Origin: Sphaerisporangium perillae
Lineage (GTDB): Bacteria > Actinomycetota > Actinomycetes > Streptosporangiales > Streptosporangiaceae
NCBI RefSeq assembly: GCF_023276435.1
Contig: NZ_JALLPO010000002.1
Location: forward strand, 124,001-188,000
DNA: 64,000 nucleotides
Direction: 5' to 3'
A program made the translations under genes and the position numbers. This document shows, one piece after another, positions 13,992 to 19,234 of the stretch. Each line of letters begins with the position of its first letter. Within the stretch, counting starts at the first letter, position 1. Below the pieces are notes generated by a model. The model did not search any database. It was not told the DNA's origin and was given only the letters and a program-made list of their open reading frames with translations.

Positions 13992-14246
13992 ATGACGACG
14001 ACATTCACCCTCGACGACATGAGAAGCATCATGGGCGGCTGCGCGGGCGTGCCGGACACCATCGACCTCGGCGACGACATCGGCGAAGTGTCCTTCGTCG
14101 ATCTCGGCTACGACTCCCTGGCCGTCCTTGAGATGGCCGCGCGCATACAGCAGCAGCTCGGCGTCCGCATCCCCGACGACGCCGTCGATGAGATGAAGAC
14201 TCCGCAGGCGGCCGTCGACTACGTCAACCGCCGGCTCGCGGACTGA
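13992..14246 (+). CDS. Type II PKS acyl carrier protein
   Basis: An 84-residue acyl carrier protein. The phosphopantetheine site is Ser42 in DLGYDSLAVLEM. The fold continues with RIQQQLGVRIPDDAVDEMKTP, and length and acidic character fit PKS carriers. It lies 31 bp after the chain-length factor, completing the minimal PKS trio, and has a GGAGG-type site before ATG 13992. Confidence 0.93.
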   Translation: MTTTFTLDDMRSIMGGCAGVPDTIDLGDDIGEVSFVDLGYDSLAVLEMAARIQQQLGVRIPDDAVDEMKTPQAAVDYVNRRLAD

Positions 14247-14729
<483 letters not shown>

Positions 14730-14855
14730 CACCCGAGCGCCGTGAAGGCCGTTCAGGCCCTCCAGATCTCCGGGCCCGACTCGCGCCCGGACCGCGCCCC
14801 CGGCACCACCGCCCCCCTTCCTGGCAGACAGCACGACCGAAAGAAGAGAGTGGGC

Positions 14856-15491
14856 ATGAACCACAAGGACAGCGTCTACCGCGTCATGGTCAAAATGCGG
14901 ATCCACCCCGGCATGGAGCGAGACTTCGAGAAGACCTGGCGGGAGGTCGCCTCCACCATCGCCCGCCAGCCCGCCAACGTGGGCCAGTCGCTGGCCAAGA
15001 GCCCCGACGAGGACGGCGTCTACTACATCGTCAGCGACTGGGAGAACGAGGACCGGTTCCACGAGTTCGAGCACAGCGCCGAGCACGCGGCCAACCGCAT
15101 GCGGCTGGACCCCTACCGCGACCCGGCGGGCACCTCCATGACCCCGATGCTCGTGTCCGCCCGGCTGGGATCCCAGCCCGGCCCGGAGCCGGGCCGCGTG
15201 CGCGTCGCGCTGTACCTCAACGAGCCCGAGTCCGACAAGGGTTCGATCGAGAGCGCCTACCACCAGATCAGCACGACGCTCGCCGGCCGGGCCGGGCTGC
15301 GCGGCAACGAGCTGCTGCGCTCCCTGCGCGACCCGCGCCGGTACGCGGTGCTGAGCGAGTGGGACGACGTCCCCACCTACCGCGAGTGGGAGCGCAGCCC
15401 CGAACACCTCCCGACGACCTCGCCGCTCGCGCGCTACCACGACAAGAACCTCGGGATCTTCGGCTCCTACGAGGTCGTGGCCGCGTACTGA
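14856..15491 (+). CDS. Two-domain antibiotic biosynthesis monooxygenase-like protein
   Basis: A 211-residue protein made of two ABM-like ferredoxin folds. The first (about 5-100) reads VYRVMVKMRIHPGMERDFEK to YYIVSDWENEDRFHEFEHS; the second (about 110-205) reads VRVALYLNEPESDKGSIESA to YAVLSEWDDVPTYREWERS. ABM enzymes are cofactor-free quinone-forming oxygenases acting on anthrone-type intermediates, and two-domain forms occur in pentangular polyphenol pathways. Here it may stand in for the FAD hydroxylase of whiE, which is missing. ATG 14856 follows an AGAAGAGAG site; an in-frame GTG at 14850 is possible. It lies 126 bp after the aromatase. Confidence 0.8.
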   Translation: MNHKDSVYRVMVKMRIHPGMERDFEKTWREVASTIARQPANVGQSLAKSPDEDGVYYIVSDWENEDRFHEFEHSAEHAANRMRLDPYRDPAGTSMTPMLVSARLGSQPGPEPGRVRVALYLNEPESDKGSIESAYHQISTTLAGRAGLRGNELLRSLRDPRRYAVLSEWDDVPTYREWERSPEHLPTTSPLARYHDKNLGIFGSYEVVAAY

Positions 15492-15510
15492 CCAGGCGAG
15501 AAACCCGGCC

Positions 15511-15553
15511 GGCCTCGCGGGGTCCCACCCGCCGGCGCGGACCCCGCGAGGCC
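15511..15553 (+). terminator. Strong intercistronic stem-loop
   Basis: A perfect 15 bp stem (15511-15525 with 15539-15553) encloses a 13-base loop. There is no U-run, so it may be an RNA-stability or partial-termination element between the ABM and SchA/CurD genes and not a full terminator. Confidence 0.6.
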
Positions 15554-15559
15554 GCCCAC

Positions 15560-15579
15560 CCGGTGCCGACCGGCACCGG
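15560..15579 (+). terminator. Second intercistronic hairpin
   Basis: The 8 bp stem CCGGTGCC/GGCACCGG with a GACC loop lies seven bases after the first stem-loop and about 20 bp before the next start codon. Together the two form a tandem structured leader in front of the SchA/CurD gene. Confidence 0.5.
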
Positions 15580-15600
15580 TGACAACGACGGAGGTATTCG

Positions 15601-15981
15601 ATGCCGTACGCAATGATCACCTTCCGGGTGAAGCCCGGGCACGAGCAGGAGCTCGCCGAGCTCTTCGGCGAATCACCGCCCCTTGAGTCGCCCGTCGTCA
15701 CCGACGAGCAAGGCCAGGAGACCGCCCGGCTGCTCGGCACGGGGGTGTTCGTCAAGGACGACGTACTGGTACGGCTGATCCACTATGAAGGCGACTTCGC
15801 CGGCATCGCCCGGCACCTCGCCGGCCAGCGGCACGTCCACGTCATCGAGGACCGCATCACCCCCTATCTGGCCGACGCGCGCGACACCGCCACCTCCGAC
15901 GGTTTCGCGGCGTTCTTCCGCAACTCGATGATGCGGTGCATCACGCAGACGTCCAGCGAGACGCACCCGACCCGGCTGTGA
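15601..15981 (+). CDS. SchA/CurD-like domain protein (WhiE ORFI-like)
   Basis: A 126-residue protein whose YAMITFRVKPGHEQELAELF, LLGTGVFVKDDVLVRLIHYEGD and FAAFFRNSMMRCITQ segments match what I know of the SchA/CurD family found in spore-pigment clusters. Its biochemical role is unsettled; a part in late tailoring or complex assembly is proposed. It has a good GGAGG site before ATG 15601. The two hairpins upstream separate it from the ABM gene, so its level may be set independently of the core PKS. Confidence 0.82.
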   Translation: MPYAMITFRVKPGHEQELAELFGESPPLESPVVTDEQGQETARLLGTGVFVKDDVLVRLIHYEGDFAGIARHLAGQRHVHVIEDRITPYLADARDTATSDGFAAFFRNSMMRCITQTSSETHPTRL

Positions 15982-16602: not shown

Positions 16603-17592
16603 GTGGACGTCCCCGCCGTACCCGGCGACGGCCTCGGCGCCGTCACACCCGCGGGCGACCCCTACGTCGTCTATCTCGGCGCCCTGACCAGCGCCGAGTC
16701 CCGCCGCACCATGCGCGGCTGCCTCGACAGGGTCGCCCGCGTCATCTCCGGCGACCCGGCCGCCACCGGCGCCGGGCAGCCGTGGCACCTGCTGCGCTAC
16801 GAGCACACGGTGCGCATCCGCGCGATCCTGACCGAGCGGGGATGGTCGCCCGCCCACGTCAACAAGCACCTGGTCGCGCTGCGCCGGGTGATGCGCGAGG
16901 CCTGGCGCCTCGGCCTGATGAGCGCCGAGGACTACCACCGCGCCGCCGACCTGCCCACCCTGCCGCACACCCGGCTGCCCGCCGGCCAGCACGTCCCGCC
17001 GGAGGTGGCCGGCGCGGCGCTCGCCGCGTGCGACCAGGACGACTCCCCCGCCGGGGTGCGCGACGGCGCGCTGCTGGCCGTGCTGTACTCCACCGGCTGC
17101 CGCCGCGCCGAGGTCGGTGGGCTCGCCCTCGCCGACTACGACGTCGCCGCGCGATCCCTGCGCGTGCGCGGAAAGCGCGACAAGGAACGCCTGGTCTACC
17201 TCACGGCCGAGGCGGTGGCCCGCACCGAGGCATGGCTGGCCGTGCGAGGGCGGGCGCCGGGCGCGCTGTTCTGCCCGATCAACAAGGCCGGGCGGCTGCG
17301 CGCCCCCGGCGGGCGGCCGGCCGCTATGACCGGGCAGGCCATCGCCGACATCCTCGCCAGGCGCCTGGCCGCCGCCGGGGCCTCCAGACGCACGCCCCAC
17401 GACTTCCGGCGCACCTTCATCGGCGAGCTGCTGGACGCCGGGGTCGACCTGGCCACCACCCAGGCGCTGGTGGGGCACGCCTCGCCGGTCACCACCGCCC
17501 GCTACGACCGCCGTCCCGAGAGCCGCCGCCGCGAGGCCGTGGACCGCCTGCGCATGCCCGACGCGCGTCCCCTGCGCCCAGGCGCCCCCTGA
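16603..17592 (+). CDS. Tyrosine recombinase/integrase
   Basis: A 329-residue tyrosine recombinase. The N-terminal SAM-like core-binding domain (about 20-125) is followed by the catalytic domain with all expected residues: Arg167 in STGCRRAEV, Lys near 191-194 in GKRDKERLVY, His266 and Arg269 in HDFRRTF, His292 in VGHAS and nucleophile Tyr301 in ARYDRR. It is of XerC/D size, shorter than most phage integrases with AMPBD domains. No excisionase, attachment repeat or tRNA is visible next to it. It may be a chromosomal recombinase or a remnant of the event that brought the polyketide locus. The start is GTG 16603. Confidence 0.88.
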   Translation: MDVPAVPGDGLGAVTPAGDPYVVYLGALTSAESRRTMRGCLDRVARVISGDPAATGAGQPWHLLRYEHTVRIRAILTERGWSPAHVNKHLVALRRVMREAWRLGLMSAEDYHRAADLPTLPHTRLPAGQHVPPEVAGAALAACDQDDSPAGVRDGALLAVLYSTGCRRAEVGGLALADYDVAARSLRVRGKRDKERLVYLTAEAVARTEAWLAVRGRAPGALFCPINKAGRLRAPGGRPAAMTGQAIADILARRLAAAGASRRTPHDFRRTFIGELLDAGVDLATTQALVGHASPVTTARYDRRPESRRREAVDRLRMPDARPLRPGAP

Positions 17593-17655: not shown

Positions 17656-18207
17656 TCAGGCGCGGCGCCCGCGCCAGGTGGCGGCGTCCAGGCGGTAGAG
17701 CACGTGGCGGCGCAGCGGGCTGCCCTCCTCCAGCGCGGGGTGGTCGAAGTCGTCGCCGGGGTCGCGGGTCATGCCCAGGCGCCGCATGACCGCCTGCGAG
17801 CGCAGGTTGGTGGTCGTCGTCATGGAGACGACCTGCGCCAGGCCCGCGGCGCCGAAGGCGTGGTCCAGGCTCGCGGTCGCCGCCTCGGTGGCGTAGCCGT
17901 ACCCCCATGCCTTGCGGCGCAGCCGCCAGCCGACCTCCACCGCGGGGGTGAAGTGCGCCTCGAACCGCTGCACCGCCAGGCCGGTGAACCCGGCGAACTC
18001 CCCGGTCTCGCGCACCTCCACCGCCCACAACCCGTACCCGTGCTCCTCGAAGCCGCCCTCGATGCGCTGGACCATCGCGTCGCTCTGGTCCCGGGTCAGG
18101 GTGGAGGGGAGGTGCTCCATCACCTCGGGGTCGGCGTTCAGCTCGGCGAAGGGCGCGAGATCCTCCTCGCGCCACCGGCGCAGGAGGAGCCGCTCGGTCT
18201 GAAGCAT
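17656..18207 (-). CDS. GNAT family N-acetyltransferase
   Basis: A 183-residue acetyltransferase of the RimJ/RimL-like group: TERLLLRRWREEDLAPFAEL at the start, GFTGLAVQRFEAHFTPAVEV for the central strands and the acetyl-CoA loop WGYGYATEAATASLDHAF, with NLRSQAVMRRLGM near the end. These enzymes acetylate N-terminal or small-molecule amines; the target is not predictable. ATG 18207 was preferred over a TTG at 18225 because the family begins at the LQTERLLLR segment. It converges with the recombinase, leaving 63 bp. Confidence 0.85.
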   Translation of the reverse strand: MLQTERLLLRRWREEDLAPFAELNADPEVMEHLPSTLTRDQSDAMVQRIEGGFEEHGYGLWAVEVRETGEFAGFTGLAVQRFEAHFTPAVEVGWRLRRKAWGYGYATEAATASLDHAFGAAGLAQVVSMTTTTNLRSQAVMRRLGMTRDPGDDFDHPALEEGSPLRRHVLYRLDAATWRGRRA

Positions 18208-18313
18208 GAGGACATCATGGCGCAAGGCGGCCGCGTGCGCGCGCGGGGCGGGCGGCGGGACACCGGGCGCGCCGGGAGAGGCGGATGTGGAATAACGACC
18301 CCCTGAAGTGGGT

Positions 18314-18475
18314 TACAGTCGACAGTGCCGATGTGGTTTGTGTCCCCCGGGCCGCAATTACCGCCTTCACGGAATACCGTTCGGCTGGAGCCGTGTTGTG
18401 CATCTCGCCGAGGAGGCGACCGCCACATCGGCCTAAACGAAGCGCCCCGCAAGCTCGCCTTGCGGGGCGCTTCGT
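18314..18475 (+). ncRNA. Candidate structured small RNA with closing stem and terminator
   Basis: A TACAGT -10-like box (18314-18319) precedes GCCGATGTGG (18327-18336), which pairs perfectly with CCACATCGGC (18423-18432), closing a domain of about 106 nt. Inside are short hairpins, including TCGCC-GAGGA-GGCGA (18405-18419), which shows a GAGGA loop. Five bases later a 17 bp stem ends the unit at 18475. No protein fits, and the unit does not match tmRNA, RNase P, SRP RNA or 6C RNA as I know them. Transcription direction is inferred; the stems read on both strands, and no good -35 is seen. Confidence 0.45.
18437..18475 (+). terminator. 17 bp perfect hairpin
   Basis: ACGAAGCGCCCCGCAAG (18437-18453) pairs with 18459-18475 around a five-base loop. 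It is the strongest hairpin in this part of the window. No U-run follows on the plus strand, while the minus-strand reading is followed by TTTAGG, so it could work in either direction. Confidence 0.6.
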
Positions 18476-18571
18476 TGTGCGACGATGTAACACTTTGTGG
18501 GCTGCCGTAACACAAGGTTGCCTCTCCGGGTCGTATGGTTGGCATTGGCCGTCCGCACACCGGGAGAGTCC

Positions 18572-19234
18572 GTGCTGTATCGCATCACCAAGATGATCAG
18601 TAGTCCCTTCCTTCGGCTGCTGTGGCGCCCCCAGGTGACGGGGGCGGCGAACGTTCCCGCCTCGGGGGCGGCGATCCTCGCCTCCAACCACCTGTCCATC
18701 CTGGACTCGGTGTTCCTTCCGCTCATGTTGCCGAGGAAGGTCACCTTCGTCGCCAAGGCCGAGTACTTCACCGGCAACCGCCTGATGGCCATGTACATGC
18801 GGAGCACCGGCCAGGTGTCGATCGACAGGCAGAGCGCCGCCGCGGCGCAGGCGATGCTCGACACGGCCGTCCAGGTGCTCAAGAGCGGGGGGCTGTTCGG
18901 CATCTACCCCGAGGGCACCCGCTCCCCCGACGGCAGGCTCTACCGCGGCAAGATCGGTGTCGCCTGGCTGGCGCTGACCGCCGGCGTGCCGGTCATCCCG
19001 GTCGCCATGGTCAACACCGAGCGCGTGCTCCCGCCCGGGGCGTCGGTGCCGCGGATCGCCCGGATCGGCGTGCGCATCGGCGAGCCGATGACGTTCACCG
19101 GCGACCCCGGCAGGGCCAGGGACCGGCGGGCGGTCACCGACGAGGTGATGAAGGCCATCCAGCGGCTGTCGGGCCAGGAGTACGTGCCCACCTACGCCTC
19201 CAGCCAGAAGGAGCGGGCCGAGGAGGCCGCCTGA
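18572..19234 (+). CDS. 1-acyl-sn-glycerol-3-phosphate acyltransferase (PlsC family)
   Basis: A 220-residue membrane-associated acyltransferase. The catalytic HX4D motif is in ASNHLSILDSVF, the acyl-acceptor phosphate site in GIYPEGTRSPDGRLYRGKIG and the later motif in VPVIPVAMV. It would add the second acyl chain to lysophosphatidate in phospholipid synthesis, although paralogues with other acceptors are common in actinomycetes. GTG 18572 follows a GGGAGAG site. It stands alone downstream of the candidate RNA. Confidence 0.88.
   Translation: MLYRITKMISSPFLRLLWRPQVTGAANVPASGAAILASNHLSILDSVFLPLMLPRKVTFVAKAEYFTGNRLMAMYMRSTGQVSIDRQSAAAAQAMLDTAVQVLKSGGLFGIYPEGTRSPDGRLYRGKIGVAWLALTAGVPVIPVAMVNTERVLPPGASVPRIARIGVRIGEPMTFTGDPGRARDRRAVTDEVMKAIQRLSGQEYVPTYASSQKERAEEAA

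Follow-up and report, generated by a model that had tools for sequence, protein, structure and literature searches.

A candidate family of structured small RNAs behind SigR/SigH-type promoter motifs in Actinomycetes

Comparison with described RNAs

Among described systems, the closest are small RNAs under the control of an ECF-type sigma factor: the RpoE-dependent Pos19 of Rhodobacter and the sigma-E small RNAs of E. coli (PMC6767563). The element described here, at positions 18326–18475 of the window (the whole 64,000-nucleotide stretch of DNA analysed), is alike in that an ECF-type sigma factor is predicted to drive it, but it comes from a different phylum and would depend on a different sigma factor; moreover, Pos19 is a coding RNA, whereas this RNA is strongly structured and conserved in sequence. 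Three structured RNAs also invite comparison. The first, the 6C RNA of the Actinobacteria, is catalogued in Rfam and likewise has a conserved C-rich segment, but according to the relevant part of PMC8388888 it forms a pair of stem-loops, both containing at least six C residues, whereas the RNA described here has one strand of four or five C residues in a three-way junction; identity with 6C RNA was rejected, as both the two C-rich stem-loops and an Rfam match are absent. The second, the raiA-motif RNA or ModT, is also a structured noncoding RNA conserved over many species (PMC11706538, partial text). It differs in its type of promoter and in that the present element has no counterpart in Rfam. 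The third, the bacterial Y RNA (YrlA), has, like this RNA, a folded module inside a closing stem; unlike the pairing of YrlA with Ro60, however, this RNA occurs in genomes from which the TROVE domain is mostly absent (it is lacking in 23 of the 28 RNA-bearing genomes examined across the class), and again there is no Rfam match.

Scanning of the window with Rfam 15 at the gathering score gave no match on the element, the only hit being a glycine riboswitch aptamer elsewhere (RF00504, 52170–52295, minus strand, 61.9 bits), an ordinary known element. Thirty further loci also gave no match on the element (there is one tRNA elsewhere), and the best sub-threshold matches are miRNA hairpin models that fall on the terminator hairpin. 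In the portions of article text covered, as distinct from the supplementary tables, the RNA is not named in five Streptomyces small-RNA surveys (PMC3765725, PMC4681348, PMC8388888, PMC11678152, PMC8780764), and the same holds for the text, apart from the tables, of a C. glutamicum transcript study (PMC4046766). Six core strings of the RNA have no match in the literature text searched, an unnamed entry in supplementary tables being possible. By these searches the family is judged to be new and is uncatalogued in Rfam, in agreement with the initial annotation, which had stated that no known RNA family explains the element.

Fold, promoter and terminator of the element

The features of the locus are as follows.

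18289..18293, plus strand: −35 element GGAAT of a predicted ECF (SigR/SigH-type) promoter, GGAAT-N18-GTT
18312..18314, plus strand: −10 element GTT, 18 nt after GGAAT, the dominant spacing in the copies
18314..18319, plus strand: overlapping TACAGT, a possible housekeeping −10; TANNNT is at the matching place in some copies
18326..18475, plus strand: predicted RNA gene of about 150 nt, structured domain plus terminator hairpin, from homologues; 5′ end placed near 18322–18326
18327..18336, plus strand: P1a closing stem, 5′ strand, partner 18423–18432; 10 of 10 pairs change on both sides
18340..18343, plus strand: P1b, 5′ strand, from covariation; 18340, 18342 and 18343 with 18421, 18420 and 18419, 18341 bulged
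18344..18362, plus strand: J1b/3 junction strand, CCCCCGGGCCGCAAUUACC; 18345–18351 conserved at 99–100% in 106 copies
18363..18401, plus strand: P3/P4 arm, length-variable in relatives; P3 is 18363–18372 with 18391–18401, P4 is 18377–18379 with 18385–18388; 4 of 5 upper P3 pairs covary
18406..18418, plus strand: P5 hairpin CGCC-GAGGA-GGCG, directly adjoining P1b; four invariant pairs, 100% of cells paired
18423..18432, plus strand: P1a closing stem, 3′ strand, covarying in the same 10 pairs
18437..18475, plus strand: 17-bp hairpin that reads as an intrinsic terminator from its exact stem and from folding downstream of the copies, with no clear T run after it
18572..19234, plus strand: acyltransferase gene (PF01553, profile match), a neighbour and not part of the RNA

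The 162-nt stretch carrying the element and its hairpin folds at −86.6 kcal/mol, compared with a mean of −61.5 for shuffled sequences (z −6.2; 0 of 200 shuffles as good). The minus strand folds nearly as well (z −5.4 against shuffles), so that folding energy alone cannot assign the strand, and it is the promoter motif and its constant distance that indicate the plus strand. The initial annotation had described a 10-bp stem, inner hairpins and a 17-bp hairpin. Both the closing stem (18327–18336 with 18423–18432, enclosing 106 nt) and the 17-bp hairpin (18437–18475, with a loop of 5 nt) are exact, and of the inner hairpins the one with the GAGGA loop at 18406–18418 was borne out, whereas the hairpin 18338–18342/18353–18357, which comes from an energy model, shows no covariation.

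There are several lines of evidence for the fold. First, in a plain MAFFT alignment of 29 copies both sides change in 10 of 26 pairs, in 51 cells as against a shuffled mean of 17.9 (0 of 500 shuffles), although further pair types in the same alignment are not above shuffles (18 vs 17.2; 197 of 500). Second, mutual information in an alignment of 106 copies (A4, effective number 52), which was fitted to a covariance model of 29 copies from the window's family and two other families (R1) and therefore leans towards P1a, P3, P4 and P5 as modelled, shows that P1a and upper P3 covary, and it also picks out the unexpected pairs 18343–18419 (U-A, A-U, C-G) and 18340–18421 (G-C, A-U). These lie in P1b, a short inner helix absent from the initially annotated structure and from R1; this signal is not built into the alignment, since R1 paired 18340–18342 with 18355–18357 instead. 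All three P1b pairs change on both sides (18342–18420 in one copy only). Third, in the final structure with P1b, 97.8% of 2,737 cells in the 106 copies are paired and 19 of 28 pairs change on both sides, in 355 cells; the covariation score is 0.363, whereas shuffles give 0.107 (0 of 500 as high) and sliding the structure by 1–3 columns gives no more than 0.085. The P2 hairpin of R1 shows no covariation and was dropped, P1b being put in its place. By energy folding alone the P1b pairs have a mean probability of 0.21–0.24. The initial annotation had named a covariance search in related genomes as the check on its proposal of a new structured RNA; that search recovered the family, and the compensatory changes at homologous loci, together with the lack of an Rfam match, support the proposal.

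Conservation is highest where the helices meet. The strand 18345–18351 (CCCCGGG), A18356 and the P5 stem are conserved at 99–100%, and P5, whose loop is a GNRA tetraloop in most relatives, is invariant in sequence as well as in pairing, so that covariation cannot test its pairing; J1b/3 is near-invariant, while P1a, P3 and P4 vary freely. The near-invariant three-way junction is likely to be the active site. A further helix is possible between the conserved GGGC at 18349–18352 and GCCY at 18363–18366, competing with the base of P3, and might constitute a switch. Inspection by eye gave no support for homodimerisation through CCCGGG, for pairing of J1b/3 with the P5 loop or for a kink-turn between P3 and P4. 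The element does not read as a gene for protein, as the initial annotation had also held: no frame is open in all 141 copies (the best is open in 102) and the copy lengths ignore codon phase (54/45/42); a coding gene was therefore rejected.

The promoter motif was counted over 136 distinct copies (from 141), in preference to a looser text-pattern set of 205 that includes false elements (e.g. L064). GGAAC or GGAAT followed at 18 or 19 nt by GTT lies within 70 nt upstream of 113 of the 136, compared with 237 of 27,200 positions drawn at random from these loci (0.9%). The spacing is 18 in 108 matches and 19 in five, the distance from the end of GTT to the first model position is 8–15 nt in all 113, and the two −35 variants are about equally common (GGAAT 58, GGAAC 55). 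In the parts of the literature that bear on this, the SigR consensus of S. coelicolor is GGAAT-N18-19-GTT (PMC9205884), SigH and SigH/SigE promoters of C. glutamicum are of GGAAT or GGAAC type (PMC10012870), and 44 start sites with a SigH-type promoter are reported for C. glutamicum (PMC4046766). On the strength of these published consensus sequences the RNA promoter is predicted to be of SigR/SigH type, that is, of the thiol-stress ECF sigma factors, possibly with SigE for the GGAAC copies. Of the 394 class genomes, 378 have a SigR-type gene scoring above the family cut-off; such factors are so nearly universal that their co-occurrence with the RNA is uninformative.

The remaining 23 copies, including all four distinct copies of one family (f15), have no ECF motif. 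TANNNT occurs near the start in 12 of these 23 and in 30 of the 113 with the motif (1.1% at random), and its presence in the motif-less copies suggests that part of the family may use a housekeeping sigma factor; a sigma-70 scan of 18200–18620 gave no promoter. In two genomes of f15 (at G052:C1 and G075:C19) the RNA and the best SigH-type sigma gene are about 17 kb apart. The Rhodococcus plasmid copies L266–L268 and L270 carry the same ECF motif.

At the other end, a terminator scan of 18200–18620 found one weak terminator-like site, which is part of the 17-bp hairpin. The 70 nt 3′ of the copies fold at a mean of −38.3 kcal/mol, compared with −27.2 at random positions, and an uninterrupted stem of at least 8 bp is present there in 75 of 136 copies, as against 146 of 680 random positions; a strong 3′ hairpin is not obvious in the Rhodococcus plasmid copies L266, L268 and L270. 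The sequence of the hairpin differs between species, and because relatives often have a different strong hairpin at that place, the 17-bp hairpin is most naturally taken for a terminator belonging to the RNA itself.

Distribution and variants

In a DNA search, 42 of 60 relatives (own genome counted) match at E≤0.01, the weakest matches including chance ones (e.g. G050, which reads as coding). The best copies in ten other genomes of the same genus are 90–97% identical over the aligned part, and there is a second, more divergent copy in the window's own genome (G000:C53); the number of paralogous copies per genome ranges from one to several. The pattern of the two stem arms occurs in at least 119 stretches over named genomes; among the matches listed, Streptosporangiaceae (Nonomuraea, Planobispora, Streptosporangium, Microbispora, Planotetraspora and others) share the inner sequence, and unrelated bacteria share the arms only and look like chance matches.

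Covariance searches extend this range, with E-values that are rough and with family and genus counts made by hand. The model R1 matches 96 of 394 class genomes at E≤1e-3, and R2, built from the alignment A4, matches 113 of 394 at E≤1e-5, in 51 of 138 genera, although the genomes with copies in A4 match R2 by construction (many of these were found by R1 first). More than one in four of the Actinomycete genomes sampled thus has the RNA, mostly behind a SigR/SigH-type promoter motif, and 281 lack it at this threshold. The R2 matches span 24 families by the hand count (in 17 a match reaches E≤1e-7) and take in every one of the 41 genomes sampled from the window's family, together with 20 of 39 genomes of a genus (g46) taken as Streptomyces from the 98% match of one of its copies (L242) to an S. 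chartreusis plasmid. Among 296 genomes of the phylum, the window's class included, there are 11 matches, all within that class. Plasmid copies occur in 68 records, from Streptomyces (49), Rhodococcus (12), Prescottella (5), Kitasatospora (1) and Nonomuraea (1). A search of phages gave no match to the RNA, and a phage element was rejected on that ground.

Several types can be distinguished. Type 1, that of the window, has the GAGGA loop and a short P4; type 2, in paralogues, has GAGA; and type 3, of about 140 nt, has a long variable P4 hairpin. Two more were read: a Streptomyces type, and an 84-nt type that lacks P4 and in which the pair 18343–18419 is mostly A-U or C-G. Tandem copies are seen at three loci, with two copies in L164 (3009–3118, 3251–3358), two in L230 (3001–3086, 3183–3268) and three in L212 (1501–2796); each of the two in L164 has its own GGAAY-N18-GTT promoter motif.

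Possible modes of action

The features found family-wide are P1a–P1b, the three-way junction with P3/P4 and P5, the ECF-type promoter motif and, often, a strong 3′ hairpin. We consider it probable that 18326–18475 is a free-standing small-RNA gene, a member of a new and widespread actinomycete family that is driven by SigR and acts in trans via its near-invariant junction. Thiol-oxidative (perhaps antibiotic) stress would free SigR, the RNA would accumulate and act in trans, and its active part would be the strand CCCC(C)GGG together with the GNRA-capped P5 adjoining P1b. The C-rich strand may pair with G-rich ribosome-binding regions of target mRNAs and repress them during stress, with the folded scaffold stabilising and presenting it. 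Such pairing with G-rich mRNA starts is our likeliest single mechanism, put forward tentatively and at well under an even chance. Energy folding leaves CCCC unpaired with a probability of 0.49 and GGG with one of 0.13, so that a freely exposed seed is not favoured, and an invariant P5 is more readily explained by tertiary or protein contacts than by antisense pairing alone. In broader terms, and again with rather less than even confidence, the SigR/SigH thiol-stress response may have an RNA arm, so far uncatalogued, that many Actinomycetes share, from Streptosporangiaceae to Streptomyces and Rhodococcus; the invariant junction of this RNA would then be more than an antisense seed, namely a putative site for binding a protein, a small molecule or G-rich mRNA starts. 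To our knowledge, accounts of the SigR/SigH regulons deal with proteins (thioredoxin, mycothiol, proteases); if the proposal is true, a well-studied stress and antibiotic-tolerance response would gain an RNA layer through this structured RNA. Streptomyces sigR mutants exist (PMC4921905, partial text).

A protein bound at the junction is almost as likely as mRNA pairing. P1b, the P5 GNRA loop and CCCC(C)GGG would then bind a conserved actinomycete protein that is titrated or guided in stress, a possibility with perhaps one chance in three by our judgement, and one in keeping with an invariant P5 and a near-invariant J1b/3 amid freely varying P1a, P3 and P4, and with the several copies per genome, some in tandem. 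No general partner emerged, however. TROVE (Ro60) matches are found across the class in five of 28 RNA-bearing and three of 22 RNA-free genomes, and outside Streptomyces in one of the 24 RNA-bearing genomes examined, and the Y RNA/Ro60 pairing was rejected as a general one on the class-wide counts. Within the 39 sampled Streptomyces, 15 of 20 RNA-bearing genomes have a match as against 6 of 19 RNA-free ones, which goes against plain dismissal of Ro60 there; the matches listed nonetheless cover only about 61–66 of 442 profile positions, and the association tracks genome size by eye, making genome size a likely confounder.

It is improbable that the junction is instead the ligand pocket or active site of a stand-alone sensor or ribozyme. 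A near-invariant unpaired strand set within freely varying helices is what such a small-molecule-binding or catalytic RNA might show, but there is no regulated gene downstream, no Rfam ribozyme or riboswitch family matches the element, and trans-acting metabolite sensors are rare.

The initial annotation had placed the RNA upstream of an acyltransferase, and a co-directional PF01553 gene does lie about 100 nt 3′ of the element, as a neighbour and not as part of the RNA. That the RNA is a cis-regulatory leader or riboswitch of this gene, with the 17-bp hairpin as expression platform, is very unlikely. Adjacent genes were called by a simple GC3-based script. Of the 136 distinct copies, 62 are followed by a co-directional gene and 62 by an opposed one, the other 12 having no called gene downstream, and the even split over the 124 with a called gene points to a stand-alone RNA gene and not to an acyltransferase leader; the next upstream gene is co-directional in 77 and opposed in 50 (none called in nine). 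The neighbour families also differ: clustering of the 251 adjacent genes gives 188 groups, of which 154 have a single member, and the largest, a short-chain dehydrogenase-like group and the acyltransferase, have eight members each, the latter adjoining eight of the 136 copies (six downstream, two upstream). Moreover, the hairpin lies outside the conserved domain, and a non-systematic inspection showed no alternative antiterminator pairing. Fourteen plasmid loci were taken, three of them without annotation; the 11 annotated ones have no neighbour common to all, and related plasmids share some (L265 with L271).

A DNA-level element (a mobile element end, or a replication or recombination hairpin) is the least credible reading, since despite the plasmid copies, the tandem copies and an integrase gene nearby in the window, in 113 of 136 copies the promoter motif and RNA domain stand in the same order and orientation and at a constant distance, with G-U pairs on the plus strand and no phage match.

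Other genes in the vicinity can be read as well. A phage-integrase-type tyrosine recombinase (PF00589) is encoded at 16603–17592 on the plus strand, about 0.7 kb upstream of the RNA promoter, and a GNAT acetyltransferase gene (17656–18225, minus strand) lies between the two. At four other loci (L026, L223, L226 and L293) the next downstream gene is presumably that of the nucleoid protein Lsr2, from the start of its sequence. Further upstream in the window, open reading frames at 13992–15981 on the plus strand look by eye like genes for an acyl carrier protein, a cyclase and monooxygenases and may belong to the end of a type II polyketide cluster.
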